A model generated the notes under the pieces. The model had not been told where the DNA came from. It was given only the letters and a program-made list of their open reading frames with translations, and made no database searches. A stretch of 43,392 nucleotides of DNA, from positions 10,368-53,759 of the forward strand of contig JAGOHA010000008.1 in the NCBI GenBank assembly GCA_017996395.1. Reading direction: 5' to 3'. Numbering within the stretch: the stretch's first letter is position 1; every line of letters starts with the position of its first letter. This DNA is from Acidobacteriota bacterium (lineage in GTDB: Bacteria; Acidobacteriota; JAAYUB01). The translations under genes and the position numbers were made by a program. Positions 6,442 to 38,142 of the stretch are shown here, piece by piece.

Positions 6442-6479
6442 GTTCCGATACTGTATTTATCGGTACTAATAGTTCCGAT
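6441..6479. promoter_or_regulatory. Putative upstream activator sites (AGTNCCGAT half-sites) for the kamA promoter
   Basis: Three copies of the half-site AGTNCCGAT in alternating orientation: AGTTCCGAT at 6441-6449, its inverse ATCGGTACT at 6459-6467, and AGTTCCGAT at 6471-6479. The last two form a 21-bp near-palindrome (arms ATCGGnACTA and TAGTnCCGAT around one central base). The first copy overlaps the stop codon of the activator gene. The cluster lies about 175-210 bases upstream of the predicted kamA transcription start, the usual place for enhancer sites of sigma-54 activators. There is no U-tract, so a terminator is a weaker explanation. Confidence 0.6.
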
Positions 6480-6557
6480 GTAGTTGTGTATAATCTTTTA
6501 TATCAATAACATAGAAGTTCATAAATGTCTAAGTATAGGCTTTATAAGGAGCAAAAC

Positions 6558-6584
6558 ATGAAGTCCGGTGACTGCTATTTTTGA
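6558..6584 (+). CDS. Possible 8-residue upstream peptide (MKSGDCYF)
   Basis: AAGGAG at 6546-6551 stands 6 bases before an ATG followed by seven sense codons and TGA. The ribosome site is nearly ideal for this window. The frame lies upstream of the sigma-54 start site, so it could be translated only from read-through transcripts of the activator gene or from an unseen promoter. It may be a chance match; no homology can be judged at this length. Confidence 0.2.
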   Translation: MKSGDCYF

Positions 6585-6625
6585 CCATACAAAGTAATAT
6601 TCTTTAAAATCAATAATATAAATAA

Positions 6626-6642
6626 TTGGCACGATAATTGCT
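6626..6642 (+). promoter_or_regulatory. Sigma-54 (-24/-12) promoter of kamA
   Basis: TTGGCACGATAATTGCT matches the sigma-54 consensus YTGGCACG-N4-TTGCW throughout, with the invariant GG (6628-6629) and GC (6640-6641) at the required spacing. Transcription would start near 6653, giving an untranslated leader of about 107 bases before kamA that begins with a 6-bp hairpin. It directly follows the gene of a sigma-54 activator. Confidence 0.85.
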
Positions 6643-6759: not shown

Positions 6760-8085
6760 ATGAAACGCGACATTTGGATCAGTGAGGAAGAGGAACCTCC
6801 CAGTACGGAGATCGGCCACGCCGAAGCCGATTTCGTGGATTCTCACGCTCCCCACGTCATCCCGTTCCGCTTGACGAGGCCCCCGCTCGTCGCCAAAAAG
6901 GCCCTGCGATCGAAGGGTCGCGGTTATGCCATTGCGCCCAGCGAGCGGTCATTGGCGTTCATGGAACGCCACTTTCCCGAGGCGACTCCCGACGAGTGGA
7001 GCGACTGGCGCTGGCAGGTGCGACACAGCATCCGGACTCTGGCTCAACTGGAACGGATCGTGGCCCTGTCCCCGGAGGAGCGGGATGCGATTCTGAGTCT
7101 GAACGGTTCGCTGCCGCTACGGATCACCCCGTATTACGCCAGTCTGCTGGATCCCATGGACGCGCTCCAGCCGATCCGGCGCAGCGTCATCCCGGTCAGC
7201 GACGAGTTCGCTGTATCGCCGGGCGAAGCGGCCGATCCACTGGGCGAAGATCACGACAGTCCCGTCCCCGGCCTGGTCCATCGCTATCCTGACCGTGTGC
7301 TGTTCCTGACCACCGGCTTTTGCGCCGCGTTCTGCCGGTACTGCACCCGCTCCCGAATGGTGGGCCACAGCAGCCACGGCGCGGGGTGCTCCAAGACCCG
7401 CTGGCAGAAAGCGATCGATTACATCGCCGCCAATCCGGCCATCCGCGATGTGCTGCTGTCGGGCGGCGATCCGCTGACCCTGTCCAATGAGCAGCTCAAC
7501 TGGCTGCTCACCCGGCTGCGGCAGATCCCGCATGTGGAATTCGTGCGCATCGGCACCAAGGTGCCGGTGGTGCTGCCCCATCGCGTCACGCCCAGCCTGG
7601 TGCGCATGCTGCGCCAGCACCACCCGCTGTTCCTCAGCATCCACTGCACCCATCCCGACGAGTTGACGCCCGAAGCCGTCCAGGCCTGCGAACGTCTGGC
7701 GGACGCGGGCATCCCGCTCGGTAGCCAGACGGTGCTGCTGGCTGGCATCAACGACAGCGTGGACACCATGAAACGACTGGTGCACGGCCTGCTGAAGGCG
7801 CGGGTGCGGCCCTACTACCTGTACCAGTGCGACCCGATCCAGGGTTCGCGGCACTTCCGGACGCCGGTGGCCAAGGGGCTGGAGATCATCCGCGGCCTGC
7901 GCGGACACACGACCGGCTACGCGGTGCCCACCTACGTGATCGACGCCCCCGGCGGCGGCGGGAAAATCCCCCTGCTGCCGGATTACGTCGAGGGCCGGGA
8001 CGGCGACGATCTGGTGCTCCGGAACTTCGAGGACAAGCTCTTCCGCTACCCCGACCCGGCGAGCGCGCCGGCGGCGGATCAATAG
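6760..8085 (+). CDS. kamA: Lysine 2,3-aminomutase (radical SAM, PLP)
   Basis: 441 residues with the radical SAM cluster motif CAAFCRYC (Cys188, Cys192, Cys195) and the PLP-lysine motif APGGGGK (Lys402). The two Asp residues that bind the substrate epsilon-amino group in the clostridial enzyme appear conserved at 358 (YQCDP) and 395 (VIDAPGGGG); glutamate 2,3-aminomutases carry Lys and Asn there. This favours L-lysine to L-beta-lysine. The N-terminal 60 residues are an extension of low similarity to what I recall of the family. There is no ablB acetyltransferase beside it (osmolyte route) and no kamDE, kdd or kce (lysine fermentation route), so the pathway is open; an EF-P lysylation role would also need epmA elsewhere. 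Start ATG has AAGGAG at 6750-6755. Expression is predicted to need sigma-54 and the upstream activator. Confidence 0.9.
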   Translation: MKRDIWISEEEEPPSTEIGHAEADFVDSHAPHVIPFRLTRPPLVAKKALRSKGRGYAIAPSERSLAFMERHFPEATPDEWSDWRWQVRHSIRTLAQLERIVALSPEERDAILSLNGSLPLRITPYYASLLDPMDALQPIRRSVIPVSDEFAVSPGEAADPLGEDHDSPVPGLVHRYPDRVLFLTTGFCAAFCRYCTRSRMVGHSSHGAGCSKTRWQKAIDYIAANPAIRDVLLSGGDPLTLSNEQLNWLLTRLRQIPHVEFVRIGTKVPVVLPHRVTPSLVRMLRQHHPLFLSIHCTHPDELTPEAVQACERLADAGIPLGSQTVLLAGINDSVDTMKRLVHGLLKARVRPYYLYQCDPIQGSRHFRTPVAKGLEIIRGLRGHTTGYAVPTYVIDAPGGGGKIPLLPDYVEGRDGDDLVLRNFEDKLFRYPDPASAPAADQ

Positions 8086-8354: not shown

Positions 8355-9920
8355 TCACTTTCTGATGACGCGATGGACCGTCAGGGGGACGCTGAGGCCG
8401 CGCAGGGCGACGGTGCCCATGTCCTCGGTGGGGAACTTGTCGCCGATCAGCTGTTTCGTCATGTCGCCGATCACGATCTCGTCCGCCTGGGCCACCGATG
8501 ACTCGATGCGCGAGGCGATGTTGACCGTGCTGCCGAGCACGGTGTAGTCCACGCGCTTTTCCGAGCCGATGTCGCCGGCGACCACCCGGCCGCTGTTCAC
8601 GGCGATGCGCATCCGCAGGGGCGCCGGCAGCATGCCGGACGCGTTGATGTCGTCCAGGGCCCGATACATCTCGATGGCCGTCTTGACGGCGCGCTCGGCG
8701 TGGTCCGGCTGGGCGAAGGGGACTCCGAACACGGCCATCACGGCATCGCCGATGTACTTGTCCAGCGTGCCCTCGTTCTGGAAGATCACCTCGGTCACGG
8801 CGGTGAAGAAGCAGTTCAGGATGCGGGCCACCTCGGACGGCTCCAGCTTTTCGGCCATGGAGGTGAAGCCCACCAGGTCGGAGAACAGCACGGTGATCTC
8901 GCGCTCCTCGGTCTTCATCATGACATCGCCGCCCGAGTGGATGATCCGGTTGACCACCGACGGCGAGTGGTAGCGTTCGAGACGCTCGCGGATCCGCTTC
9001 TGCCGGTCGATCTCCTGGTTGAGCCGGTACTGGTCGATGGCGATGGCCGAGATGATGGCGATGGTGGAGAGCAGGTCCAGGTCGCGTTCCTGGAAGAAGT
9101 TCTCGAAGAAGAGGCAGTCCACGTAGATGATGCCGATGATCTTCCGCTCGTCCCAGAGCGGCACGCACATGCAGGAGCGGATCTGCTGCATCATGATGCT
9201 TTCCTGGGCGCCGAAGCGGCTGTCGCGCATGGCGTTGGCGGTGAGGATCGCCACCCCCTCGGTGAACACCTTGCTGACGATGGTCCGGGAGAAGCTGATG
9301 TCCTTCTCCGAGCGCGACGCGGAGGGATGGCGCAGCTTGATCACGTAGGGCACGAGCTCGTTCGTCTCGTCCTGGAGCATGAGGAAGCCGCGGTCCGCCT
9401 TCAGGTACTCGAACACCAGGTCCATGACGCCGGAGAGCACGCTGTCCAGGCTGTTGGAGCCGATCAGCGCCTTGGTGGAATTGAAGATCACCTGGATCAT
9501 CTGCTGGGGGTCGCGCTGGAGCTGGGGGGTGGTTTTGCCTTCGGAGAGCGAGAAGCGGGAGATGGGGAAGGCGATGGTCATGTTCGCGTCGGTCTCATAC
9601 TCATCCGACAGGTTGACGCGCGAGACCAGCGGATTGCAGAACGTCACCACCACCGTGCCCAGCTTGATCCGGTCGCCGTGGCGCAGGAGGTGGCTGGTGA
9701 TCTGCTGGTCGTTGACGAACGTGCCGTTGACGCTCTTGTTGTCCTCGATCAAAAACTGCTCCCCCTGCCGGAAGATCCGGGCGTGGTACCGGGACACCTG
9801 GGGGAAGGCCAGCACGACGTCGCAGTCGGGCGCCCGGCCGACGGTGTTGGACACGCTGGTCAGGGGATATCGGCGGGACTGCGTCTTGTCCCGGAGTTCC
9901 AGGTAAACGTTTTCACTCAA
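8355..9920 (-). CDS. Adenylate cyclase, class III, with FHA and GAF domains
   Basis: 521 residues. An FHA domain (about 1-100) shows VGRAPDCDV, SRYH and the NGTF signature, so it should bind phosphothreonine. A GAF domain (about 140-305) follows, then a short coiled linker and a class III cyclase domain (340-521). Metal-binding Asp348 (FSDLVGFTSMAE) and Asp392 (DKYIGDAVMAVFG), Lys388 and Asp458 (VDYTVLG), which select ATP, and the transition-state pair Asn467/Arg471 are all present, so an active adenylate cyclase is likely. The start is a TTG overlapping the stop of the upstream metallo-beta-lactamase fold gene by 8 bases (TTGAGTGA), which implies translational coupling. Its FHA domain could receive a signal from a Ser/Thr kinase such as the one at 21075-23609. 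It is cytosolic. Confidence 0.92.
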   Translation of the reverse strand: MSENVYLELRDKTQSRRYPLTSVSNTVGRAPDCDVVLAFPQVSRYHARIFRQGEQFLIEDNKSVNGTFVNDQQITSHLLRHGDRIKLGTVVVTFCNPLVSRVNLSDEYETDANMTIAFPISRFSLSEGKTTPQLQRDPQQMIQVIFNSTKALIGSNSLDSVLSGVMDLVFEYLKADRGFLMLQDETNELVPYVIKLRHPSASRSEKDISFSRTIVSKVFTEGVAILTANAMRDSRFGAQESIMMQQIRSCMCVPLWDERKIIGIIYVDCLFFENFFQERDLDLLSTIAIISAIAIDQYRLNQEIDRQKRIRERLERYHSPSVVNRIIHSGGDVMMKTEEREITVLFSDLVGFTSMAEKLEPSEVARILNCFFTAVTEVIFQNEGTLDKYIGDAVMAVFGVPFAQPDHAERAVKTAIEMYRALDDINASGMLPAPLRMRIAVNSGRVVAGDIGSEKRVDYTVLGSTVNIASRIESSVAQADEIVIGDMTKQLIGDKFPTEDMGTVALRGLSVPLTVHRVIRK

Positions 9921-10677
9921 TGTGGATCATCTCCCCCGCGCGGGCGATGTGCATGCGCGGACCGCTCAACCCGGCGATCTCCCGCTCGATCTGTTCCACG
10001 TACTGGTTCTTGTAGTGCGTGAGGTAGATCGGCACGTGCTTCTTGAGCTTCCGGAGCTCCTGCTCGAGGAGCTTCGGCGTGAGATGCCCCGCCGACTGGG
10101 CCAGATCCACGTAGGCGTCGGGGAACGAGATTTCGCTGAAGATGGCCTTGAGGTGCGGGCTGCGGTTGGCCTCGATCCAGATCACATCGCAGATGGTGGT
10201 GTCGGACGTGAAGAGCACCTGGCTGCGCGTGGCTTTCTCCTCCAGCAGGATGCCGTAAGTGGGGACGGGGTGGTTGACGGGAAACAGGTAAAAGTTGAAA
10301 TGGTCCAGGTCCACCGTCCGATAAGGCTCCACGTCGCACATCGTGAAAAAATGGTCGGAGATGTTCTGCAGCTCAGGCCACAGGACGTTGTTGAACAGAT
10401 GCTTCCTGACCATGGCCAGGTTGTGCGCCGTGGCATGGATTACGGGCGGCGGGGTGGAGTCGGACCAGCGGTTGTCGATGAAGATCGGCAGGGTGGCCAG
10501 ATGATCAATGTGGGTGTGGGTGATGAGGATGTTCTGGATGCGTTTCTGTTCCGCCACGGTCAGGCCCAGCCCGATGGCGCCGGCGTCGATGGCGAGCTCG
10601 CCGTTGATGACGTAGGTGGTGAGAATGAAGCGCTGCGAGAGTTCGCCCGGATAGGTTCCGAGGATCTGGATGTCCAT
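9913..10677 (-). CDS. Metallo-beta-lactamase fold, class II cAMP phosphodiesterase-like protein
   Basis: 254 residues with the metal-binding motif HTHIDH (His54, His56, Asp58, His59) and further candidate ligands in VNHPVPTYG, FTSDTT and LTHYKN. The layout, an early GTYPGE segment, HxHxDH with Ile in place of Leu, and a late S-x-G-H-L-T stretch, resembles class II cyclic nucleotide phosphodiesterases more than ribonuclease Z. Being cotranscribed and overlapping with an adenylate cyclase strongly supports a role in cAMP hydrolysis, but that is inference from context. It would let one promoter set both synthesis and breakdown. The ATG at 10677 has only a weak AGGG ribosome site. Confidence 0.75.
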   Translation of the reverse strand: MDIQILGTYPGELSQRFILTTYVINGELAIDAGAIGLGLTVAEQKRIQNILITHTHIDHLATLPIFIDNRWSDSTPPPVIHATAHNLAMVRKHLFNNVLWPELQNISDHFFTMCDVEPYRTVDLDHFNFYLFPVNHPVPTYGILLEEKATRSQVLFTSDTTICDVIWIEANRSPHLKAIFSEISFPDAYVDLAQSAGHLTPKLLEQELRKLKKHVPIYLTHYKNQYVEQIEREIAGLSGPRMHIARAGEMIHIE

Positions 10678-10777: not shown

Positions 10778-12139
10778 TCAGAGGCCGGCGGAGAGGTACC
10801 GCCGGCGGACGTGCTCCAGCGCCGCCTCGCGAGTCGTGAGCCGGTCTTCGAGTTGGAGGGTCTCGACCTCGTCCAGGATGGTCTTGAACAGGGGGCCCGG
10901 CTGGAAGCCCAGCGCGATGAGGTCGCGGCCGGAGAGGAGCGGCGGGGGGCTGATGGCCGCCGTCCCCAGGGCGGCGAGCTGCTCGCGGCAGAAGGTGTGA
11001 TGGTCCAGCAGGCGGTGGGAGCCCAGGCAGTCCAGGCGGTGGAGCTCCAGGTGGAGATCGAAATCGTCCATCCGCAGGAACCGCTTCAGCCGGCTGGGGC
11101 GCATCTCCTGGACGTGCATGAACTGCAGGTGCGACGCCACCAGCGCGCAGACCCGCTCGTTCTCCTCCCGCGAGAAACGCAGCCGCTCCATGATCCGCCG
11201 GCTCATGCCGACGCCCAGCTCGACGTGGCCGTGGAATCGGATCCGGTCCCGGATGCGGAACGTGGGGGGCTTGGCGATGTCGTGGAGCAGGATTCCCATG
11301 GCCAGGGCGTCCGGCAGGGGGTAATCTGCGGCGGCGAACATCGCCCGCACGTGGGTGAATACGTCGCCTTCGGGGTGATAGGTTTCCGGCTGGGGGATGC
11401 CCACCATGGCGCTCGCTTCCGGCAGGATGGCGGCGAGCAGTCCGGAACGTTCCAGCAGGTCGAGCGCGGTGTCGGCGCCCCGGCGGGTGAGGCCCTTGAG
11501 GAGTTCCTCCCGGATGCGTTCGGGCGCCACCCGGAGGATGGAGGGCGCCAGCCGCCGCAGGGACTGCCACGTGGCCGCGTCGATGGTGAACTCCAGGCCG
11601 GCGGCGAACCGGACGGCCCGCATGAGCCGGAGGTGATCTTCGCTGAAGCGGTCGTCCGGCGCGCCGATCGTCCGGATGCACCGGGACGCCAGGTCGGCTT
11701 CGCCGCCGACGTAGTCGATGATGACCCGCCGGCGGGGATCGTAGAACAGGCCGTTGACGGTGAAGTCACGGCGGCGGGCGTCCTCTTCGGGTGTGCTGAA
11801 ACGGATCCCTTCGGGATGTCGCCCGTCGCGGTAGGCCAGGTCGGCGCGGAACGTGGCGACCTCGAACGGGATGCCCTCCAGCTTCACCAGGATGACGCCG
11901 AACTGGGCGCCCACGGCGCGGTGGTCGGGGAAGAGGCGCTGGATCTCAGCCGGGACGGCGTCGGTGGCGATGTCGACATCCTGGACGGGGCGGCCGAGCA
12001 GCAGGTCGCGGATGCAGCCGCCGGCGAAATAGGCGGTGAAACCGGCCGCGTGCAGCGTCTCCACGATTCGGCTGGCGGCCCCGAACAGGACGGGGTCGAC
12101 ACCCGAAGGCTCGTAGGGGCGGAGGGGTTCAGGCGCCAT
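10778..12139 (-). CDS. CCA-adding/poly(A) polymerase family nucleotidyltransferase with HD domain
   Basis: 453 residues. The class II nucleotidyltransferase head shows GGCIRDLLLGR at 40-50 and the metal-binding pair DVD at 54-56, followed by RRRDFTVNGL and the RLMRAVRF segment of the tRNA-binding neck. An HD phosphohydrolase domain with LLHDIAK (His286-Asp287) and a helical tail follow, the layout of bacterial HD-containing CCA enzymes. CCA addition to tRNA 3' ends is the most likely role; a CC- or A-adding half-enzyme or poly(A) polymerase cannot be separated by eye. The gene starts inside the end of the acyltransferase gene upstream (11-base overlap), so the two are cotranscribed. Confidence 0.87.
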   Translation of the reverse strand: MAPEPLRPYEPSGVDPVLFGAASRIVETLHAAGFTAYFAGGCIRDLLLGRPVQDVDIATDAVPAEIQRLFPDHRAVGAQFGVILVKLEGIPFEVATFRADLAYRDGRHPEGIRFSTPEEDARRRDFTVNGLFYDPRRRVIIDYVGGEADLASRCIRTIGAPDDRFSEDHLRLMRAVRFAAGLEFTIDAATWQSLRRLAPSILRVAPERIREELLKGLTRRGADTALDLLERSGLLAAILPEASAMVGIPQPETYHPEGDVFTHVRAMFAAADYPLPDALAMGILLHDIAKPPTFRIRDRIRFHGHVELGVGMSRRIMERLRFSREENERVCALVASHLQFMHVQEMRPSRLKRFLRMDDFDLHLELHRLDCLGSHRLLDHHTFCREQLAALGTAAISPPPLLSGRDLIALGFQPGPLFKTILDEVETLQLEDRLTTREAALEHVRRRYLSAGL

Positions 12140-12869
12140 GTTGCGCCGGCTCGGGCTGGGTGTACACCGAGAGCATCGCGGCGCGGACGCGCTCGGCCAG
12201 GTCTTCCGCGTCGCGGGCGGTGAGGCCCGCCGTCTCGATGGGCGGCAGCACGGTCATGTGGATGTCGCCCGGTTGGATGCGCATTGAGGTCTTGGGGAGC
12301 AGGAACCGGCTGCCGGCGATGGCGATGGGCACCACGGGCGCCTGGGCGTAGATGGCGATGAGCAGGACCCCCTTCTTGAAGGGCAGGATCACGCCTTCGG
12401 GATTGCGTTGACCCTCGGGGAATACGAGTACGCTGACGCCGCCGGCGATCTTGCGCGCGCCGTCGCGGATGCTGCGGAGCGCCTTGCGCGGCTCGCCGCG
12501 ATGCACGGGAATGTTGCCGCTCCGGCGCAGGTGCCAACCGAGGAACGGGACGCGGAAGAGCGATTCCTTGGCGGCGAACCGGAACTGGACCGGGATGTGC
12601 GCCAGCAGCGTCCAGATGTCGAAGAAGCTCTGATGGTTGGAGGCGAAAACGCACGGCCGGCCGGGGGGAATGTGTTCCAGACCGACGGTGGTGACGCGGG
12701 CCTTGCTGATCCATAGGACGAAGCGAGACCACGTCCGGGCGCACCAGTGCTGCTTGACCCCGCTGCCGTCGAACAGCGACATGATCACCGACAGGCACGA
12801 CATGAGCCCGGTGAAGGTGATGATGATGGGGTCGATCCAGATCCAGCGGTACGACGTTCGCTCCGCCAC
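12129..12869 (-). CDS. 1-acyl-sn-glycerol-3-phosphate acyltransferase (PlsC family)
   Basis: 246 residues with a hydrophobic N-terminal membrane segment (about 11-33), the catalytic NHQSFFD motif (His79 to Asp84), the glycerophosphate-binding FPEGQRNPEG near 150-159 and VVPIAIAGS. These are the standard acyltransferase blocks I to IV, so the protein should transfer an acyl chain to lysophosphatidic acid on the inner face of the membrane. The start is GTG with GGAGG about 8 bases before it. It is the first gene of a two-gene unit with the nucleotidyltransferase. Confidence 0.88.
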   Translation of the reverse strand: MAERTSYRWIWIDPIIITFTGLMSCLSVIMSLFDGSGVKQHWCARTWSRFVLWISKARVTTVGLEHIPPGRPCVFASNHQSFFDIWTLLAHIPVQFRFAAKESLFRVPFLGWHLRRSGNIPVHRGEPRKALRSIRDGARKIAGGVSVLVFPEGQRNPEGVILPFKKGVLLIAIYAQAPVVPIAIAGSRFLLPKTSMRIQPGDIHMTVLPPIETAGLTARDAEDLAERVRAAMLSVYTQPEPAQHGA

Positions 12870-13059: not shown

Positions 13060-13248
13060 TCAGCCGATGGGGCCGGGCCCGCATCCGGCGTGACCCGGCG
13101 ATCCGGCGCTGGCGAAGGTCGAGAACTCGCGATCCACCTTCTCGGAACCGCAATGGGGGCAGCGCACGTCGGCGTCGTCGTCGGACAGGCGCCGCAGCGC
13201 TTCAAACGATTTCCGGCATTCCCGGCAGAAGTACTCGTACAGCGGCAT
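13060..13248 (-). CDS. FmdB-family zinc ribbon protein
   Basis: 62 residues beginning MPLYEYFC, with CxxC (FCREC) and a second CPHC pair that together form a zinc ribbon, then a Gly/Pro-rich tail with one further Cys. This is the FmdB/CxxC_CXXC_SSSS type regulatory-like zinc ribbon. Its role is unproven in most bacteria. The ATG at 13248 has GAGG about 8 bases upstream; a GTG two codons earlier is also possible. It is the last gene of the efflux operon. Confidence 0.85.
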   Translation of the reverse strand: MPLYEYFCRECRKSFEALRRLSDDDADVRCPHCGSEKVDREFSTFASAGSPGHAGCGPGPIG

Positions 13249-13321
13249 GGACACCTCACTCCGAATCCGGTGGCGGCGGTTGCTTCCGATCTCGGGACCC
13301 GAGATCGCAGGCGTCGGACAT

Positions 13322-13430: not shown

Positions 13431-13637
13431 TCACTGCTTGCATGGGGCGGTGTCGGGCACGCCCAGCTTGCGCAGGATGGTCATCATGGGGCACCAGTTC
13501 GTGAAGGCCGACTGGAGGAGGTTCAACCCGACGAACGCGGTGAAGTAGAACCAGTTCGAATGGACCCAGATGCCCAGGGCCACGGTGAGCAGAATAAAGA
13601 ATCCGGCGATCAGTCGAAGCAGGCGATCAACGGTCAT
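13431..13637 (-). CDS. DUF2892 (YgaP-like transmembrane domain) protein
   Basis: 68 residues from the ATG at 13637, which has AAGGAG at 13646-13651; the upstream in-frame extension has no ribosome site. Two hydrophobic segments (about 7-25 and 31-48) lead to the family signature FTNWCPMMTILRKLGV, with a Cys at the membrane edge. Homologous domains occur alone or behind rhodanese domains as in YgaP. Its place between UspA and a tiny membrane peptide in an RND operon suggests a membrane accessory or stress role, which is inference. Confidence 0.85.
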   Translation of the reverse strand: MTVDRLLRLIAGFFILLTVALGIWVHSNWFYFTAFVGLNLLQSAFTNWCPMMTILRKLGVPDTAPCKQ

Positions 13638-13709
13638 GATGTGTCTCCTTTGGACCCGATCCACATGGACCAGTCAGTGGCATTAGATGATGCGAACCGC
13701 CGGTTCGTC

Positions 13710-14576
13710 TCAGACGACCGGGACGGTCAGTACGGCGCACGATGCGTGACGGGTGATCCGGGCGACGGTGGCCCCGAGCACGGTGACGTCTTGAAACAGC
13801 TTGTGGCGAGTCGGCAACACGATGAGCTCCGCACGCGACTCCCGAGCCGCCAGGAGGATCTGCTCGGCCGGTTTGCCCGGGCGAATCACCTCGTGAAGGC
13901 GGCAGCTGGTGCGGGCGGCGTCCGGCACCCAGGCGCACAGGGCCTCCCGCGCGGCGCGCTCCGTGCCCGGGTCCGGCGCCGATTCCGCCACGTGGAGCAC
14001 CTGGAGCTCGGCTTCGAAGGCCGCAGCCAGCCGGGCGGCCAGCAGCAGCGCGGGCCGGGCGTCCTCGCCGAGGTCCACGGGGCAGAGGATGGTGCGGATC
14101 CCCGGGAAGGCGGCCGGGTCCGTCTCCGCGGCGAGCTTGACCGCGAGTACCGGGCGGTCCGCCAGCCGCAGGACCCGTTCGGTCACCGAGCCCAGCATGA
14201 TCCGGTCGAAGGCGCTGTGGCCGTGCGATCCCATCACGATCAGCTCAGCGTTCCGTTCGGCGGCCAGCCGGATGATCGCGGGCACCGCCAGGTCCTGGAC
14301 CACCACCGGCTCGGTGGCGACGGCCGGGGCGATCATCCGGCCCGTCTGCTCGACCAGCGCCTGCCGGGCGGCGGCGCGGGACTTGTCGAGCTCCTCGACG
14401 AGGGTGTCGATCTGCCGCGCCGTGAAGTGCGGCGGCGGCAGAAACCGGTCGGCGTACAGGGCGACCAGCGGGCGGGACAGCCGGATCGCCAGCTCGCCGC
14501 CCCAGCGAAGGGCGTGGCCGGCTTCGGCGCTGAAGTCCGTGGGACACAGGATCGGTCGGGTAGATTCGGCACTCAT
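13710..14576 (-). CDS. Tandem universal stress protein (UspA)
   Basis: 288 residues forming two Usp domains. The first carries the ATP-binding pattern G-x2-G-x9-G-S (GSHGHSAFDRIMLGS near residues 115-129). The second (from about 158) reads LPTRHKLFQDVTVLGAT and lacks the first two Gly residues, so it probably does not bind ATP. The ATG follows AGGAGGAG and lies 13 bases after the RND pump stop, so both are translated from one message. Such proteins are cytosolic and respond to stress; here it may sense energy state or stress linked to the pump. Confidence 0.88.
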   Translation of the reverse strand: MSAESTRPILCPTDFSAEAGHALRWGGELAIRLSRPLVALYADRFLPPPHFTARQIDTLVEELDKSRAAARQALVEQTGRMIAPAVATEPVVVQDLAVPAIIRLAAERNAELIVMGSHGHSAFDRIMLGSVTERVLRLADRPVLAVKLAAETDPAAFPGIRTILCPVDLGEDARPALLLAARLAAAFEAELQVLHVAESAPDPGTERAAREALCAWVPDAARTSCRLHEVIRPGKPAEQILLAARESRAELIVLPTRHKLFQDVTVLGATVARITRHASCAVLTVPVV

Positions 14577-14589
14577 GGTCTCCTCCTGA

Positions 14590-17500
14590 TCAGGCCGACG
14601 GCGCCGCCGGGTGCTTGTGCCACCGGCGGTGCACCACGAAATAGACGATGGGGACGGTCATGCGCGACAGGGCCAGCGAGGCCACCTCGCCGGCCATCAG
14701 GGCGATGGCCAGCCCCTGAAAGATCGGGTCGAACAGAATGACCGCCGAGCCGACGATCACCGCCGCCGCCGTGAGCATCATGGGACGGAACCGGACGGCG
14801 CCGGCGTCGATCACGGCCTGGTCCAGGGGCATCCCTTCGCGCAGGCGCAGCTCGACGAAATCGACGAGGATGATGGAGTTGCGGACGACGATCCCCGCGC
14901 CGGCGATGAAGCCGATCATGGACGTGGCGGTGAAAAAGGCGCCCATGAGGCCGTGGGCCGGCAGGATGCCCACCAGCGAGAAGGGGATCGCCGCCATGAT
15001 GATGAGCGGCGTGTCGAACGACTGGAACCAGCCCACCACCAGGATGTAGATGAGCAGGAGCACCGCGGCGAAGGCGATGCCCAGGTCGCGGAACACCTCG
15101 TAGGTGATGTGCCACTCGCCGTCCCACTTGAGGGCGTACCGCTCGTCGCTCTCGGGCAACCGCGCGGTGAGCTGCTCGATCTGGTATCCCTCGGGCAGTC
15201 GGATCGCATCGATCTTGGGCCCCAGGGCGAGGATCGCGTAGACCGGGCTCTCGTGGGCGCCGGCCACGTCGGCGGTCACGTAGGTCACGGGCATCAGGTT
15301 CTTGTGGTAGATGCTCTTGTCCTCGACCGTCTGCTCCGCCCGAACGAGTTCCGACAGGGGCACCAGCCGGCCGTCGCGCGAAGGGAGCTTCAGATCCAGG
15401 AGGCGGTCCAGGTCGGAGCGCGCCGCGCGGTCGAGACGCACGCGGATGTGCACGTCCTCTTTCTCCAGCTCGCTGTGGAGCAGGCCGGCCGACTCGCCGG
15501 CGGTGGCGATCCGCAGCGTCCGGGCGACATCGTCCTCGGAGATCCCGTGCAGCGCGGCTTTCTCCTTGTCCACCAGCAGACTGGTCTTCGGCTGGTCGTC
15601 CTCGAGGTACATGTCCACGTCCACCACACCCTCGACGCTTTCGAAGATGTCCCGCACCTGACGGGCCAACCGGTGCTGGCCGGCCTGATCGGGGCCGTAG
15701 ATCTCGGCGACCAGCGTCTGGAGCACCGGCGGGCCCGGCGGCACCTCGGCCACCTTGATCCGGGCGCCGAACGCCCGGGCGACGGGCACGAGGTCGGCGC
15801 GGATCTTCTTGGCGATGTCGTGGCTCTGGAGATCGCGGTCGCCCTTGGGCAGAAGGTTGACCTGGATGTCGGCCACGTTGGCGCCCTGGCGCAGGAAGTA
15901 GTGCCGCACCAGGCCGTTGAAGTTGTACGGCGACGCCGTGCCGGCGTACGTCTGCAGGTCCACCACCTCGGGGTGTTCCAGCACCTTCTCGGCCAGGCGG
16001 CGGGTGACCATCGCGGTGGTCTCCAGGGTGGTCCCCTCGGGCATGTCCACGATGACCTGGAACTCGCTCTTGTTGTCGAAGGGAAGCATCTTGACCTCGA
16101 CGAACTCGATGAAGATCAGTCCCACCGAGCCGAGAAGGAGCACGATCACCATCAGCAGGAAGCCGTACCGGTACGCCGGACGGTGGAGCAGGTAATCCAT
16201 CGCCCGCCGGTAGAACCGGGTGAGCAGGTCCTCCTGCTCGTCGTGCCCGTGGCCCCCGCGCAGCTTGAGGAGCCGGACCGCGGCCCACGGGGTGACCATG
16301 AAGGCGACGATGAGCGAGAAGATCATGGCCGCCGAGGCGCCCACCGGGATGGGCCGCATGTAGGGGCCCATGAGCCCGCCCACGAAGGCCATGGGCAGGA
16401 TGGCGGCGATGACGGTCATGGTGGCCAGGATGGTGGGGTTGCCCACCTCGTCCACCGCCTCGATGGCGATGTCGACGATGGGACGGCCTTTGTTGGCGGC
16501 CATCCGGGCGTGGCGCACGATGTTCTCCACCACGACGATGGCGTCGTCCACCAGGATGCCGATGGAGAAGATGAGCGCGAACAGGGTGATCCGGTTGAGG
16601 GTGTACCCGTACAGGTAGAACACCGCCAGGGTGAGGGCCAGGGTCACCGGGATGGCGATGAAGACGATCCACAGCTCCCGGATGCCCAGGGTGATGCCGA
16701 TCAGGATGCTCACCGAGATTACGGCGATGGCCATGTGAAAGAGCAGCTCGTTCGACTTCTCCGAAGCCGTTTCGCCATAGTGGCGGCTGATGGTCACGTT
16801 CACATCGGCCGGAATGACGCGGCCTTTGAGGCTCTCGACACGCTGTAGCACTTCTTCGGCCACGGCGATGGCGTTGGTCCCCTTGCGCTTTGAGATGGAC
16901 AGCGTCACCGCGGGGTGGAACGCCCCGCCGTGGGCGTGCATGACGTACTGGGCCGGTTCCTCGCCGCCATCGACCACCGCGGCGATGTCGCGGACGTAGA
17001 CCGGCTTGCCCTGGGCGACGCCGACGACCACGTTCCCGACGTCGGCGGCGCTGGCCAGGAACTGGCCCACCTCCAGGGTGAACTCACGGTTGTCGGCGGC
17101 GAACCGGCCGCCGGGGAGGCGCCGGTTGAACGCGCCGAGCGCGCCGTACACCTGCATGGGCGACAGGCTGTAGGCGGCGAGCCGGTTCGCGTCGAGCACC
17201 ACCCGGACCTCGCGGCGCTGGCCGCCGATGATGGTGGCCGCCGACACGTCGGGGGCCTGCTTGACGGTATCGTGCACCTGGGCGGCGATGCGACGCAGGT
17301 CGAAGTCGCCGTAGCGCTCGCTCCAGAGCGTCAGCGCCAGGATGGGCACGTCGTCGATGGAGCGCGGCTTGATGAGCGGCTGGGAGGCGCCCGGCGGGAT
17401 GAGGTCGAAATTGGCGTACATCTTCTGGTTGAGCTTGACGATGCTGTCTTCCTCGTCCTCGCCGACGTAGAAGCGGACGATGGCCATGGCCATCCCCGGG

Positions 17501-17781
17501 CTGGATGTGGAGTAGATGTACTCGACGCCCGGGATCTCCCAGATCAACTTCTCCATGGGCTTGGTGACCCGCTCCTCGACTTCCTTGGCGCTGGCGCCGG
17601 GCATGGCCACGAAGACATCGAGCATGGGCACCTTGATCTGCGGCTCCTCCTCGCGGGGGAGGCGCCACACGGCGAACGCGCCGAGCGCCAGTGAGGCGGC
17701 GATGAACAGCGGCGTCAGCTTCGAGTTGATCCACGAGCGGGCGAAGCGGCCCGCAATGCCGAGCGGTTGCGGCTCTTTCAC
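14590..17781 (-). CDS. RND efflux pump inner-membrane subunit (AcrB/HAE1-like)
   Basis: 1063 residues from the GTG at 17781, which overlaps the adaptor stop as GTGA and has GGAGG 8 bases upstream; the 55 longer in-frame residues are the adaptor sequence read in another frame. Twelve membrane helices and two large periplasmic loops fit the family. The helix 4 proton-relay pair is visible ([16 protein letters not shown]); the matching helix 10 segment reads [13 protein letters not shown], with Arg near the position of the AcrB lysine. The pump would expel drugs, solvents or metabolites by proton antiport through the adaptor and TolC channel of the same operon. Substrate cannot be read from the sequence. 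Confidence 0.93.
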
Positions 17782-18926
17782 GACCGGACCTCCACCTTCG
17801 CCCCGTCGGACAGGTCGGCGGTGACGGGGTAGATGATCGACTCGCCGGCGGCGAGCCCGGAGAGAATCTCGCGGCGGCCGTCGCGTTCGGCGCCGGTGGT
17901 GACCATGCGCAGGCGGGCCGTGCCCTGGTCGGCCACGAACACCCACTGCAGCTGGCCGCGGGTCCGGATGGCGTCGGCGGGCACCGCCAGCACGTTGCGG
18001 CTGCCCACGGTGAACGCGGCCCGGCCGAACAGGCCGGAGCGCAGGTCCGGCACGGCCGGCAGGTCGATCTTGACCATGAAGGCGCGGGCCGCGGGATCGA
18101 TGGTCGGGACGATGTCGGTCACCCGGGCGTCGATCCGGCGGTTCAAGGCGTCCAGCGTGACCGCAACCGGTGCGCCCGGCCGAATCGAAGCCAGCTGCGA
18201 TTCATCCACCGACGCCTCCAGGCGGTAGTCGCCGCGGCGCTCCAGGGTCAGCAACGGCACTCCCGGAGCGGCCAGGTTGCCCTGCTGCACGGTCTTGTCT
18301 ATGACCACGCCGGCGAAGGGCGCGCGGATCTCGGCATAGCCGGCCATGAGCTCGGCCGATCGGACCCCTTCTTCCGCCTGCCGGATCCTGGCCTGAAGTT
18401 GACTCCGCTTCGACAGGGCCATTTCGTGATTGGCCTCGGCCATCTTGAGGCGGGTGACGACCTCGTCAAATTCCTGGCGGGAGATGGAGCTCTTCTCGAA
18501 CAGGTCGCTCATCCGCCGGTGGGTGGCCCGAGCCAGCTCGAGATTGGCCTCGGCGGCGCGGATGGCGTTCTCCACCTCGTTCATGGCGTCTCGCGCTTCG
18601 GCCAGGCCGGCCTGGGCGGTGCGCAGGGCCGCTTCCTGGTCCCGGGCGTCAAGCAGCACGAGAAGATCGCCTGCGCCCACGGCGTCACCGGCCTGGACGC
18701 GCACCTCGCGCACGTGCCCCATCACCTTGCTCGCGATCGTGGCGCTGGTCCGGGCGTGCACGGTGCCTACGGCCTCCAGAGTCGCCGGCCATTCGATCGG
18801 CTGGACGACCAAAGTCCCGACGGCGACGGGCGTTCCCGGGGCCGGCACAGCGGCCTTCTCGGGTGCGCCGCCGCAGCCCGCCAGCAGGACGACCAGCAGG
18901 GCGACAGGCAGAATATTCCGGAACAT
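17778..18926 (-). CDS. RND periplasmic adaptor lipoprotein (membrane fusion protein)
   Basis: 382 residues from the ATG at 18926, with GGGAGG about 12 bases upstream. Residues 1-18 form a lipoprotein signal with lipobox LLAGC, so it should be anchored by lipid in the inner membrane. The barrel-lipoyl-hairpin order is clear: a lipoyl half ([18 protein letters not shown]), a long alpha hairpin rich in Ala/Glu/Arg, the second lipoyl half ([17 protein letters not shown]) and beta-barrel/membrane-proximal domains. It joins the pump to the TolC-like channel. The open frame extends 33 codons upstream without a signal peptide. Its TGA overlaps the pump GTG. Confidence 0.93.
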
Positions 18927-19021
18927 AGGATTGAACCTCCCTGAATTGAATGCGGCGGAATGAAACCGACGGATCCCGACGTTGTTCAGTTGCTGCATCA
19001 TGGCGCTGTTCCTCCCGGCGT

Positions 19022-20395
19022 TCACTGGAAGAGGGGGCTGCCCAGGTTCAGCCGACCGGCTGCCAGCTCGAGGTTGGCGTGCGCCAGGTGGTACTGGTAG
19101 ATCGCCTGGCTCAGACTGGTGCGTGCGGCCGTCAGCGCCGTTTCGGCGTTCAGCAGGTCGGTGAGGGTGGCCAGGCCCGCCTCGTAGCGGTCCTTCATGA
19201 TCCGCAGACTCTCGTCCGCCTGGGCCACCGCTTCCGCAGCGACCTGGTGCTGCTGGCGAGCGGTGCCCATACGGAGGGAGGCGTCCTTCACCTGCAGACC
19301 GATGAGCTGGGTGAGGCGCCGGAGCTGCGACTCGCGGGCGCGGGTGTTGGCCTCGGCCTCGGCCACCTTGGCCCCCTTGTACATGCCGTCGAAGATGTTG
19401 TACGACAGCTGCACACCGAGCAGGTAGTTGGTGCCGGAGGAGCCGGACCGCGTGCCCTGGTCGTATTCGAACGTGGCGAAGGCGCCGACCTGCGGCCGGT
19501 TGTAGCCGCGGGCCTCATTGACCTGCTCCCGGCCGATGGCGATGGCGCGCTCCAGTTCCGCGATCTCCGGTCGGTTCGCCAGAGCGGCGGCCTGCAGCGT
19601 CGCCTCGTCGGGCAGCGCGTCGCCGCGCATCGCCAGCGGCGTGGCCGGCTCGAAGCCCTCGCCGAGCTGACGGCCCGTGTCGATGTCCAGGGCGGTGACG
19701 CTGAGCCGGAGGTGGTTTTCCGCCTCGAGCAGCTGCCGTCTCACGTCGGCGATGTGGACCTGCATGCGGAGCAGGTCCGACTTCACCACCAGCCCCGAGT
19801 CGAACATGTTCTGGATGCGGGCGAGGCTGGCTTCGGCGGACCGGCGGGCGGCCTGGACGGTCTCCAGGTTCTGCCGGGCGAGCTGGATGGCGTAGTAGTG
19901 GGTGACCACCTCCAGCAGGAGTTGCTGCTGGGTTTGGTCCAGCCGTTCGGCGGCGATCTCCTCGCCCAGCCGGGCCATGGCGCGCCGCGCCTGCGTCTGG
20001 CCGCCCTGCCAGATCGACTGGTACAGGGTGAGCTCGGTCTTGAAGTTGTTGATGGGATCCGGATTGTTCAGCATCTCGATGTCGAAGTCGGAGGCGGCGA
20101 ACTTCTCCTGGGTCAGCTTCGATCCGAAAACATAAATCGGGTTGTTGCCGTTGGTGAAGCTCTCTCTGAAGTCGAGGCGCGGCAACTGCTGCGATTTCGC
20201 CTGCCGGCTCACCTGGCGCGCGGCCTCCTGCTGTTCCCGGACCGCCTGAACCGACGGATTGTGGGCCAGAGCCAGCTCCGCGGCCTCGCGGAGCGTGAGG
20301 GGACGCGGTCCGGGCGCGTCCACGGCGGCCAACCAGGCCCCGAGCATCGCCCACACCAGCCAGGACGACGTCAGTCTGCGGGGTGTCATCGCCAT
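19022..20395 (-). CDS. TolC-family outer membrane channel protein
   Basis: 457 residues from the ATG at 20395, which has AAGGAG 7 bases upstream; an earlier in-frame ATG lies inside the previous gene. A short Sec signal (residues about 5-30) is followed by two tandem outer membrane efflux protein repeats, recognised by LTLREAAELALAHNPSVQ and by NIFDGMYKGAKVAEAEAN, each with long Gln/Ala/Arg-rich helices. It forms the trimeric exit duct for the pump. It lies 49 bases after the TPR-like gene and 95 bases before the adaptor gene, in one transcription unit. Confidence 0.92.
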   Translation of the reverse strand: MAMTPRRLTSSWLVWAMLGAWLAAVDAPGPRPLTLREAAELALAHNPSVQAVREQQEAARQVSRQAKSQQLPRLDFRESFTNGNNPIYVFGSKLTQEKFAASDFDIEMLNNPDPINNFKTELTLYQSIWQGGQTQARRAMARLGEEIAAERLDQTQQQLLLEVVTHYYAIQLARQNLETVQAARRSAEASLARIQNMFDSGLVVKSDLLRMQVHIADVRRQLLEAENHLRLSVTALDIDTGRQLGEGFEPATPLAMRGDALPDEATLQAAALANRPEIAELERAIAIGREQVNEARGYNRPQVGAFATFEYDQGTRSGSSGTNYLLGVQLSYNIFDGMYKGAKVAEAEANTRARESQLRRLTQLIGLQVKDASLRMGTARQQHQVAAEAVAQADESLRIMKDRYEAGLATLTDLLNAETALTAARTSLSQAIYQYHLAHANLELAAGRLNLGSPLFQ

Positions 20396-20444
20396 CTTGA
20401 ACTCCTTGAACATACAATATAGTGCATGCTGAGTCATGATCTTC

Positions 20445-20855
20445 TCAGCGAATGTTCCACTCGGGCTCCATCTCACCGATCAGCCGGCGGCAGCGGGCCG
20501 CCTCCGTCTCATCTTCCAGCAGTTCCGCCAGCACCATCCGGTTGCAGGCGGTGGCCCTGGAGTCGGCGTGACGGCACAAGTCGCCCAGCCGGGCCCGAAG
20601 GCCGACGATGAATTCTGCAGAAAAACGATGGCCGTACTGGCGGATCCGGTCGGTATCCAATACCGGGCTCGCGATCAGGATCCGGTGAACGGTTTCGGAA
20701 ACGTCCCGGCAGCGCAGCTGCACGGCATGGCAGACGAGCAGGGCGTAAAGGGCATGCACCCTCTGGGCTCCATCCGCAGCCAGGGCTTCGAATATTGGAA
20801 CCGCTCGCTCCGTTTGGCCTTCCGCCAGGTATTTGTTGGCCAACATCGCGTTCAT
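20445..20855 (-). CDS. Small TPR-like cytosolic protein heading the efflux operon
   Basis: 136 residues from the ATG at 20855 (MNAMLANKYLAEGQ). The longer frame begins at a TTG inside a sigma-54 promoter (20918), and would start upstream of the predicted transcript start, so it is rejected. The helical pattern ANKYLAEGQTERAVPIFEALAADG looks like one or two tetratricopeptide units; the rest is Arg/Leu/Ala-rich with five Cys and no membrane segment. A GGAGG lies 14 bases before the ATG, somewhat far. I do not recognise a family. Position suggests a regulator or scaffold for the efflux operon, without direct evidence. Confidence 0.6.
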   Translation of the reverse strand: MNAMLANKYLAEGQTERAVPIFEALAADGAQRVHALYALLVCHAVQLRCRDVSETVHRILIASPVLDTDRIRQYGHRFSAEFIVGLRARLGDLCRHADSRATACNRMVLAELLEDETEAARCRRLIGEMEPEWNIR

Positions 20856-20901
20856 GGTGTCGTCGGCAACCTCCTCGGCGCACTCGTGACCCCGAGTCCA
20901 T

Positions 20902-20918
20902 TGCATTTCAAGTGCCAA
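20902..20918 (-). promoter_or_regulatory. Sigma-54 (-24/-12) promoter of the efflux operon
   Basis: On the minus strand TTGGCACTTGAAATGCA keeps the invariant GG (20916-20915) and GC (20904-20903) at the exact sigma-54 spacing; it departs from consensus at only two less conserved places. Transcription would start near 20891, about 36 bases before the ATG at 20855. The upstream array of TGTTGC sites supports it. Confidence 0.72.
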
Positions 20919-20982
20919 TTGCGCATTAACTATGTAATATATTTTAAATCAAATAATTAGATCGAATAGAGCACTAAATTGA

Positions 20983-21043
20983 ATGTTGCGCGTATGTTGC
21001 AATCAGAGACTTATGTTGCATTTATATGCAACTATATGCAACT
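20983..21043. promoter_or_regulatory. Array of TGTTGC/GCAACA half-sites, likely enhancer for the efflux promoter
   Basis: Five copies of one 7-base half-site in 60 bases: ATGTTGC at 20983, 20994 and 21013, then its inverse ATGCAAC-type copies at 21026 and 21036. The inner pair makes a perfect palindrome, GTTGCAT-TTAT-ATGCAAC (21015-21032). Several copies are 10-11 bases apart, on one face of the helix. The array lies about 90-150 bases upstream of the sigma-54 transcription start, the normal place for an activator. It falls in an AT-rich gap (20919-21074) that holds no gene. The half-site differs from that near kamA, so a different activator is expected. Confidence 0.65.
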
Positions 21044-21074
21044 TCCAATTCGTTGTCTTCAGTCTGGTGGGGAT

Positions 21075-23609
21075 TTACAGTGATCGTGTCTTTCGGTAAA
21101 CGATGTCCCGGAGAAATTCCTTGAGCTCTTCGCTGGCGGGGCTGAGCGGGATGAGCGAGTTGACGATGTCCAGCGCCTCGTCAATCCGTTGTTCCTTCAG
21201 AGCGATGCGCGCTTTCTCCATCTCCGCCTTGATGTGCTCCTCTTTTCGGTTTTCCATATCCAGGTTGTCTTTCAGTTCCTGGAACACGGGCTCGTCTTTC
21301 ATGAGCTTGAGGCTGAGGGTGCTGTCCAGAAGCGCAGCGGCCTCCTGGAAGGAGCCCGCGGCAATGGCTTTTTCGATCTTCTCCTGCTGTAGGCTGACCA
21401 GGCGTTTCTTGAGTGCCTGCGACAAAGTGATCAGGGCGTCTTCGTTGGGGAATCGGTCCATCAGGGTCAGGGCGAGCTCCGCCGCCTGGTACAACTCACC
21501 GTTTTTCTCGAGGCGGTCCAGCTCCTCGAGGCCGGACAGCAGCTCCTCACGATCGCGCGTTTCCTTGTCGGACTTGATCTTCAGGTAATTGGTGTACAGG
21601 AACGTGTGCTCCGGATTCTGCGCCATCAGCTCGCGGATGATCTCCAGCGCCTTGTCATAGGCGCCCTTCGATGCCAGGTTTACGGCACTGGCCAGCCGGG
21701 ACTGGCTGCATTCGAGCAGATCCTCGTTCTGGAAGCTCAAGCGCAGGTTGTCCAACTCATGCTTGAATATCGTCACCTGCTTTTCGTCCGGATACGCCTC
21801 GGTGACCAGCTTGTACAGCTCCTCCGCCTTGCCGAGATCGCGCGCGTCCAGCGCTTCACGGATCTCGCGGAACGACTGCTGGAGCTCGATCTGATTGGCC
21901 ACCTCGATCATCTTCTCTTCGAACGGCGCCGTGCCGGGGAACTTGTCCAGCAGCTTCATGAGGTAGATCTGCGCCTGTTCGGTCTGCTCGGACTTGAGCA
22001 GGGTGTTGACGATCTTGATCTGATCGCTGACAAAATGCTGCATCGATTCCTGACGGTCCTGCTCCAGCTTGGTGGCCATCAGGGTGTTGTACTTCTCCAC
22101 AAGCTCCCGGTTTTTGGAATACATGCGGAGCAGGGGCCGCAGCAGCGCCACGGCCTCCTCCAACCGGCCCGACTCCTCGAGCGGAACGAGCTGGTCGAAC
22201 AGGGAGTCGATGGCGCTCTTCTCGCGACGGTTCTCCAGGTGCTCGCGGCGAGCGATGTAGTCCTTCACTTTGCCGAAGAGACGGTTCCCCGCTTCGATAT
22301 GGGCGGCGAGTTCATCCCAGCTGCCGCGGTTGGCCAGTTTCTCGCCCTCTTCCGCCCACTCGTTGATCTGCCACGTTGACTCCCGCGTGGAGATCAACCG
22401 GTCCAGCTTGCTGATCTGGGGCGACGACGGATCGAGCTTGAGCAGCGTCTCCAGCTCCAGCCGGGCCAGCTGGAAGTTGTCCTCGTCGAGGAGCCGCAGC
22501 GCGTCCTGGTAGTGCTTCTGGAACATGGCCCGCTTGTCGAAAGATTCCTTTTCCTGGCGCAGCTGGCGGTAGTAGGTCTGGAATTCGGGATCGTGCTGGT
22601 AGGTCTTGTGATGCTCCTTGAGTAGCCCGATCGCCTCGGTCAACCGGCCGTCCGACGCCAGCGCCCGGCTCTGGTTGAGCAGCTCGCTGAGCGTCAGCCA
22701 GGATTTGGTGTCGGACCCTTTCTTCTCCCCGGTCCTGGGCGAGGCCGCCGGTTCCACCGTCACGGTCTGCTGGAGCTGGAGCGTGTCGTCGGCCGCGACC
22801 GTCGCATAGAGCTGGGACAGCACCCGGCCGAACTCGTCGAGGTTGGGATAGCGCTTGTCGCGGTCTTTCTGAAGGCTCCGCAGGACGGCGGTCTCCAGCG
22901 CCTCGGGACAGTCGTCGCGGATGGCCCGGATGGGGATGGGCGGCTTGTTGAGGATGGCCTGGATCGTGGTGGGGATGTCTTTTTCCAGAAACGGCTTGGC
23001 ACCCGTGATCAGCTCGTACAGGATCACCCCGAGCGAATACTGGTCCACACGGCCGTCCACCTTCTGACCGATGATCTGCTCGGGAGGCATGTAGCCGAGC
23101 GAACCCAGCAGCATGCCGGCCTGGGTCATGGTGGAGGTCAGGACGTGGGCCACGCCGAAATCCAGGATCTTCACCAGACCGTCGGAGCAGATGAAGATGT
23201 TCGCCGGCTTGATGTCCCGGTGGACGACTCCGTTCTGGTGGGCGAAATGCAGACCCTTGCTCGTCTGGATGGCGATGTTCAGGAGCTTTCGGTAGGGCCA
23301 GCGCTGGTTGGACTGCATCATGGTCTTCAGGTCGGTCCCGTTGAGCAGCTCCATGACGATGTAAGGCGTCTTCTGCTCCTCGCCCAGCTCGAAGATGGTG
23401 ATGATGTTGGCGTGCCGCAGGCTGCCGGCCGCCTTGGCTTCGGTGTTGAAACGCTTGCGGAGCTGCGGGTCCGTCATCAGCTCCGACGTCATGGTCTTGA
23501 TGGCGACCTTGCGCTCGAGGGCGGTGTCGAAGGCGATGTAGATCACGCCCATCGATCCCTTCCCGAGGGTTCCCTGGATCTGGTACTTGCCCAGTGATTT
23601 GTGCTGCAT
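21075..23609 (-). CDS. Cytosolic Ser/Thr protein kinase with long TPR/helical C-terminal region
   Basis: 844 residues. The kinase domain (about 8-270) is complete: glycine loop GKGSMG at 16-21, Lys38 in AIK, catalytic HRDIKPAN from 130, DFG at 150-152 and an activation loop with several Thr/Ser (LTSTMTQAG), then GYMPPEQ. After a short low-complexity linker the remaining 570 residues are a chain of charged helices with tetratricopeptide-like pairs (for example LEEAVALLRPLL and EQAQIYLMKLLDKFPG). There is no transmembrane helix or PASTA repeat, unlike PknB. It should phosphorylate proteins in the cytosol; the FHA domain of the adenylate cyclase in this window is a possible reader. It is divergently transcribed from the MFS gene. 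Confidence 0.93.
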   Translation of the reverse strand: MQHKSLGKYQIQGTLGKGSMGVIYIAFDTALERKVAIKTMTSELMTDPQLRKRFNTEAKAAGSLRHANIITIFELGEEQKTPYIVMELLNGTDLKTMMQSNQRWPYRKLLNIAIQTSKGLHFAHQNGVVHRDIKPANIFICSDGLVKILDFGVAHVLTSTMTQAGMLLGSLGYMPPEQIIGQKVDGRVDQYSLGVILYELITGAKPFLEKDIPTTIQAILNKPPIPIRAIRDDCPEALETAVLRSLQKDRDKRYPNLDEFGRVLSQLYATVAADDTLQLQQTVTVEPAASPRTGEKKGSDTKSWLTLSELLNQSRALASDGRLTEAIGLLKEHHKTYQHDPEFQTYYRQLRQEKESFDKRAMFQKHYQDALRLLDEDNFQLARLELETLLKLDPSSPQISKLDRLISTRESTWQINEWAEEGEKLANRGSWDELAAHIEAGNRLFGKVKDYIARREHLENRREKSAIDSLFDQLVPLEESGRLEEAVALLRPLLRMYSKNRELVEKYNTLMATKLEQDRQESMQHFVSDQIKIVNTLLKSEQTEQAQIYLMKLLDKFPGTAPFEEKMIEVANQIELQQSFREIREALDARDLGKAEELYKLVTEAYPDEKQVTIFKHELDNLRLSFQNEDLLECSQSRLASAVNLASKGAYDKALEIIRELMAQNPEHTFLYTNYLKIKSDKETRDREELLSGLEELDRLEKNGELYQAAELALTLMDRFPNEDALITLSQALKKRLVSLQQEKIEKAIAAGSFQEAAALLDSTLSLKLMKDEPVFQELKDNLDMENRKEEHIKAEMEKARIALKEQRIDEALDIVNSLIPLSPASEELKEFLRDIVYRKTRSL

Positions 23610-37889: not shown

Positions 37890-37914
37890 CACGTCGGGTG
37901 TTTGAGCGAAACCG

Positions 37915-38076
37915 TTGACCGGTGCCCTCGGGCGATTTGGGAAAGTGGTGCGAATCCACTGCGGGCCCGCCGCTGTGACCGGGGACGAAGGCCGCAAGTT
38001 GCCACTGTCCGGACGGATTCCGGATGGGAAGGCGCGGCCGGAGGACGATCCGGGAGCCAGAAGACCGGCCGGTCGA
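37915..38076 (+). promoter_or_regulatory. Cobalamin riboswitch aptamer
   Basis: Conserved blocks appear in the right order: GGTGCC with the GGGAAAG core at about 37920-37946, GGTGCGAATCCACTGC, CCGCTGTGACCGGGGACGA, GCCACTG, GGGAAGGCGCGGCCGGA, and the B12 box GAGCCAGAAGACC at 38054-38066. The outer P1 stem pairs 37915-37922 with 38069-38076. It should bind adenosyl- or hydroxocobalamin and lower expression of the downstream transporter. Confidence 0.92.
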
Positions 38077-38142
38077 TGTTTTCACTGGACTCCTCGCGGA
38101 GACAGGATACAGTGATGCCCCGCTGGCTTTCCATTCTCGCTG

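Follow-up and report, generated by a model that had tools for sequence, protein, structure and literature searches.

The 43,392-nucleotide stretch of DNA analysed here (the window) carries on its minus strand the genes of a tripartite efflux pump of the RND type, preceded by a gap that combines a sigma-54 type promoter with an upstream array of short repeats. The source genome (G000) was compared with those of two congeners (G001 and G002) and of a member of another genus of the same family (G003), all of them draft assemblies. The features of the locus, in window coordinates and running along the minus strand, are the following:

21075–23609, minus strand: PknB-type Ser/Thr kinase with TPRs, the upstream gene
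20985–21042: array of five GTTGC/GCAAC half-sites, probable activator (enhancer) sites, kept in G001, G002 and G003
21015–21032: palindrome GTTGCATATAAATGCAAC (GTTGC-N8-GCAAC), whose inner positions differ in the congeners as A/T or G/C pairs
20947–20959, plus strand: site resembling the IHF consensus, AATCAAATAATTA, lying between array and promoter; a weak match, expected by chance in about 3% of cases
20902–20918, minus strand: sigma-54 type -24/-12 promoter TTGGCACTTGAAATGCA, read from the sequence and kept in G001, G002 and G003
20891, minus strand: predicted transcription start, about 12 bases past the -12 GC, placed by the known geometry of sigma-54 promoters
20445–20855, minus strand: leader gene for a 136-aa helical TPR-like protein (weak TPR scores), first gene of the operon
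19022–20476, minus strand: TolC/OEP outer-membrane efflux protein (limits of the ORF; the true start is probably some 20–30 codons in)
17778–19025, minus strand: RND periplasmic adaptor (HlyD-type)
14590–17946, minus strand: RND permease (ACR_tran); translation probably begins at a GTG near 17784
13710–14576, minus strand: tandem universal stress protein (Usp), directly after the permease, in the same order in G001 and G002
13434–13640, minus strand: YgaP-like transmembrane protein (PF11127), also following the permease in G001, G002 and G003
13063–13254, minus strand: FmdB-type zinc-ribbon protein, the probable end of the operon

Since a single operon unites genes for an ACR_tran permease, a HlyD-type adaptor and an OEP protein, the identification as an RND efflux operon made in the first-pass annotation is confirmed, and the set of permease, adaptor and TolC is that of the tripartite pumps with AcrB, MdtB, MexK and CmeB folds. 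Unlike those pumps, the operon also includes genes for Usp, a YgaP-like protein and the TPR leader. The label “multidrug-type” holds at the level of the fold; however, the scores of the permease fall far short of the NCBIfam cut-offs for multidrug pumps, with 467 bits against 1250 for the best multidrug (HAE-1) family, NF033617. They are equally far from the CusA/CzcA cut-off (TIGR00914), with 253 bits against 701. Among solved structures the permease comes closest, at low scores, to MdtB and MexK. Both congeners retain the kinase, leader, TolC, adaptor and RND genes, while G003 retains the leader (33% identical), TolC, adaptor and RND genes behind a different upstream gene; the Ser/Thr kinase, being absent upstream in G003, was rejected as part of the unit. 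In the pump operon of G003, a weakly P-II-like small protein is encoded after the YgaP-like gene (L260, about 1893–2186; G003:C223).

The longest open reading frame of the leader begins at TTG 20918, within the promoter. This automatic start had already been mistrusted in favour of a plausible ATG, and the comparison of the four genomes agrees on both points: the leader proteins align from ATG 20855 and all start downstream of the promoter. The ATG lies 36 bases from the predicted transcript start, with GGAGG just upstream. Among 396 genomes of the phylum, homologs of the leader were limited to the four family members, apart from generic TPR matches.

On the minus strand, TTGGCACTTGAAATGCA (20918–20902) deviates at one position from the sigma-54 consensus TGGCAC-N5-TTGCW and, as had been read from the sequence before, has the GG-N10-GC spacing intact; the GG is at 20916–20915 and the GC at 20904–20903. 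When the 219 nt preceding ATG 20855 are shuffled, a match to TGGCAY-N5-WTGCW arises in 0.24% of cases, and the strict form TTGGCAC-N5-WTGCW occurs twice in the 3.73-Mb genome, both times inside the window (6626–6642, plus strand; 20918–20902, minus strand). The plus-strand occurrence is a perfect sigma-54 site, TTGGCACGATAATTGCT, situated between an activator gene (5002–6441) and a lysine-2,3-aminomutase-like radical SAM gene (6760–8085); it is kept in G001 and G002 and has GTTCCGAT-type repeats upstream.

Conservation of the GG and GC bases in relatives had been named as a check on the promoter. In the alignment of upstream regions, all four genomes, and thus two genera, retain GG-N10-GC, while spacer and flanks vary. 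The G003 site is a perfect TGGCACAAGACTTGCA (TGGCAC-N5-TTGCA), and that of G001, TTGGCATCAGAAGTGCG, has a weaker -12 element and a score of 8.8, reached in 10% of shuffles, with a matrix that represents the general sigma-54 consensus rather than one fitted to the host lineage. Two genomes of the same order (G004 and G005) encode the pump and lack such a promoter, so that the sigma-54 control would be specific to the lineage.

Upstream of the promoter, the five half-sites extend from -94 to -151 relative to the predicted start near 20891, which matches the earlier description of an array 90–150 bases upstream; three are strict TGTTGC and two are AGTTGC. Of 20,000 dinucleotide-shuffled versions of the gap, none contained five half-sites within 70 bases and three contained the GTTGC-N8-GCAAC palindrome; since the motif was picked from the same sequence, these values are optimistic, and the independent support for the array is its conservation. 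Each of the four aligned upstream regions contains the array. In G001, the palindrome reads GTTGCG-N6-CGCAAC, the inner bases therefore being altered on both sides, and in G003 a TGTTGC array occupies the same place with differently spaced repeats and without the exact palindrome. The exact palindrome was found at no other place in the source genome, and a wider regulon can therefore not be read from it. The IHF-like site recurs in G002 and, as TATCAATGTGTTA on the opposite strand, in G001; it is absent from G003.

A second case of this arrangement was found among 98 loci from relatives encoding this permease. In a member of the Gemmatimonadota (L102, JABJJN010000079.1), a trx-TolC-adaptor-RND operon has a perfect sigma-54 site, TGGCACGCTGCTTGCA, which none of 3,000 shuffles equalled with the same consensus matrix, and about 90 bp upstream a repeat of the same kind, TTGTTGCAACATTACGCTGCAACG (0.14% of shuffles). 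A gene for a PAS activator (11197–12699) follows directly, starting at the end of the RND gene. In a deltaproteobacterial locus (L077, about 590), a strong sigma-54-like site, TGGCATGTGTATTGCT, precedes the TolC gene, with no GTTGC array at the site. Promoter candidates at two further loci (L086 and L154) fail correction for the many loci searched.

The source locus thus presents together a GG/GC core, its conservation, RpoN (encoded in all four genomes) and sigma-54 activators in the genome, and upstream repeats within the range of about 80–200 bp, as expected of a sigma-54-dependent promoter. The promoter assignment is solid, and what we infer beyond it concerns the activator and its signal. 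Most probably, judging from the sequence, a true sigma-54 promoter and an activator-bound array drive the leader-TolC-adaptor-RND-Usp-YgaP-like operon. RNA polymerase with RpoN would sit in a closed state at 20918–20902, an AAA+ activator would bind the GTTGC/GCAAC array at 20985–21042 and contact the polymerase via DNA looping, and transcription would start near 20891 and read through the genes in that order. That an RND efflux operon is driven from a sigma-54 promoter with an enhancer array had been put forward in the first-pass annotation, and this part of the reading is now well supported by conservation across genera, by the presence of RpoN and activators, and by the independent gemmatimonadotal locus with its adjacent activator gene.

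Two other explanations of the upstream region have to be weighed. The sigma-54-like site could be a chance match, with transcripts of the operon arising from a sigma-70-type promoter in the gap or running on from the kinase gene; the gap is indeed AT-rich (33% GC), has no terminator-like stem and contains one weak sigma-70-like match (9/12) at 21059–21031. That match, however, is at chance level (0.6 expected), the strict sigma-54 form occurs so rarely in the genome, and the core is kept across genera while the upstream gene is not, which leaves this explanation very improbable. Somewhat less improbable, yet still unlikely, is that the promoter is of the sigma-54 type and the array is the site of a repressor or another regulator. 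The direct and inverted spacing of the array varies between species, and ArsR-type regulators often adjoin this pump in other bacteria; on the other hand, the array lies in the usual range of activator sites, where a repressor would not directly block the promoter, and at the gemmatimonadotal locus, which has the repeats as well as an activator gene, the neighbour clusters include no ArsR member.

If the array is taken as an activator site, the question is which protein binds it. The search for sigma-54 activators that had been proposed returned 15 full-size activator domains in the source genome, and the best single candidate is a cysteine-rich PAS-PAS protein (the C162 activator; G000:C162:71283–73007, equivalent to L190 9281–11008). 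It is preferred because it accompanies the promoter in all four genomes (at 94%, 95% and 61% in the three relatives), because its DNA-binding helix is the closest to that of the gemmatimonadotal activator (RTTLWRKM), and because its two PAS domains carry conserved cysteine clusters, NCxACxxNCPF and CYKILNSSxCxxACPLK, which recur in G003 (L259 4211–6028, G003:C82). No ortholog of similar identity was found among 36 further genomes sampled. Activators of this kind commonly carry RTTLWRKM, which makes the match between the two helices a weak one, and the GTTGC array is absent at the C162 activator's own gene; its candidacy is accordingly the strongest of any individual protein and still falls short of an even chance. 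Both the C162 activator and its G003 counterpart adjoin an alanine-racemase-like gene.

Taken together, the other conserved activators have a slightly better than even claim to the array. Those with G003 orthologs include response-regulator types (C98, C238, C158, C140, C188 and C189) and a PAS activator at an ORP-like locus (C105), the latter being the best whole-length match to the gemmatimonadotal activator (47%); against C105 stand the facts that it adjoins targets of its own, which have sigma-54-like sites, and that C162, not C105, has the nearest DNA-binding helix. The C105 locus (L191; G000:C105) encodes this cysteine-containing PAS activator at 5198–6610 beside iron-molybdenum-cofactor-like, rubrerythrin-like and ParA-like genes, has sigma-54-like sites at 5054 and 5167, and resembles the Desulfovibrio ORP locus. 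The activator encoded within the window (5002–6441) shares a contig with the pump operon, at a distance of about 14 kb, and is present in the congeners. It has, however, no reciprocal ortholog in G003, which possesses promoter and array and in which about ten other activators have one, and the promoter next to its gene (6626–6642) is accompanied by different repeats, of the GTTCCGAT type; the chance that it controls the pump is slighter than that of any explanation considered above.

As to the signal, the first-pass annotation had suggested solvent, phage-shock-like envelope stress or a metabolite. None of these finds support; the content of the operon and the neighbourhoods of the pump relatives point to sulfur or redox instead. 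Genes near the relatives encode ArsR (18 loci), YgaP-like proteins (12 loci), rhodanese, OsmC, thioredoxin and a fusion of a CoA-disulfide-reductase-like protein with rhodanese. Rhodanese and ArsR genes were not found in the operon itself and are known only from near the relatives, while the YgaP-like gene is present. Because of these adjoining ArsR, YgaP-like, rhodanese and thioredoxin genes, together with the YgaP-like gene in the operon, sulfur or redox is favoured over solvents or drugs, and by gene association our best guess for the signal would be sulfane-sulfur or redox stress. RND pumps are reported to be among the likely targets of sulfane-sulfur-responsive ArsR regulators (PMC12423496), and many permease relatives share ArsR, rhodanese and YgaP-like neighbours with such sHdrR-related, ArsR-associated pumps near sulfur genes. 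Unlike these, the present operon has a sigma-54 promoter, and no ArsR gene was found in it. A speculative and rather doubtful extension is that a sulfur-linked RND class has switched from ArsR to sigma-54 control at least twice, in the source family and in a lineage of Gemmatimonadota, and that a PAS activator (cysteine-rich in the source family) recognises GTTGC/GCAAC arrays and acts as a sensor of sulfur or redox state. Should the signal indeed be sulfur or redox, a widespread and unassigned RND class would be tied to the handling of reactive sulfur in lineages that are uncultured and probably acidobacterial.

Among sigma-54 promoters with activator arrays, which are known as a kind, this locus is a new, well-conserved example with an unusual target. 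The sigma-54 regulome of Desulfovibrio vulgaris (PMC4641369) shares the -24/-12 core, the upstream activator sites and the many one-component PAS activators; the text of the paper, when searched, yielded neither an RND or efflux target nor the GTTGC-N8-GCAAC motif. The Geobacter RpoN paper makes no mention of RND or efflux, and in an rpoN mutant of Paraburkholderia phymatum RND genes changed in both directions; it is on these reports that the target is judged unusual. In a literature search that mostly covered papers outside subscription journals, neither the motif nor sigma-54 control of this pump class was found. As an example of an efflux operon controlled strictly by an activator, the locus is clean and open to testing, and a defined DNA motif links it to few candidate sensors.

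Two further features of the window deserve mention. A fusion of FHA, GAF and guanylate cyclase domains (8355–9920, minus strand) adjoins a class II cAMP phosphodiesterase-like gene (9913–10677), possibly forming a cyclic-nucleotide pair, and a cobalamin riboswitch (37903–38087, plus strand; Rfam RF00174, 116.6 bits) lies upstream of genes that include one for a FecCD-type permease (39826–40890).
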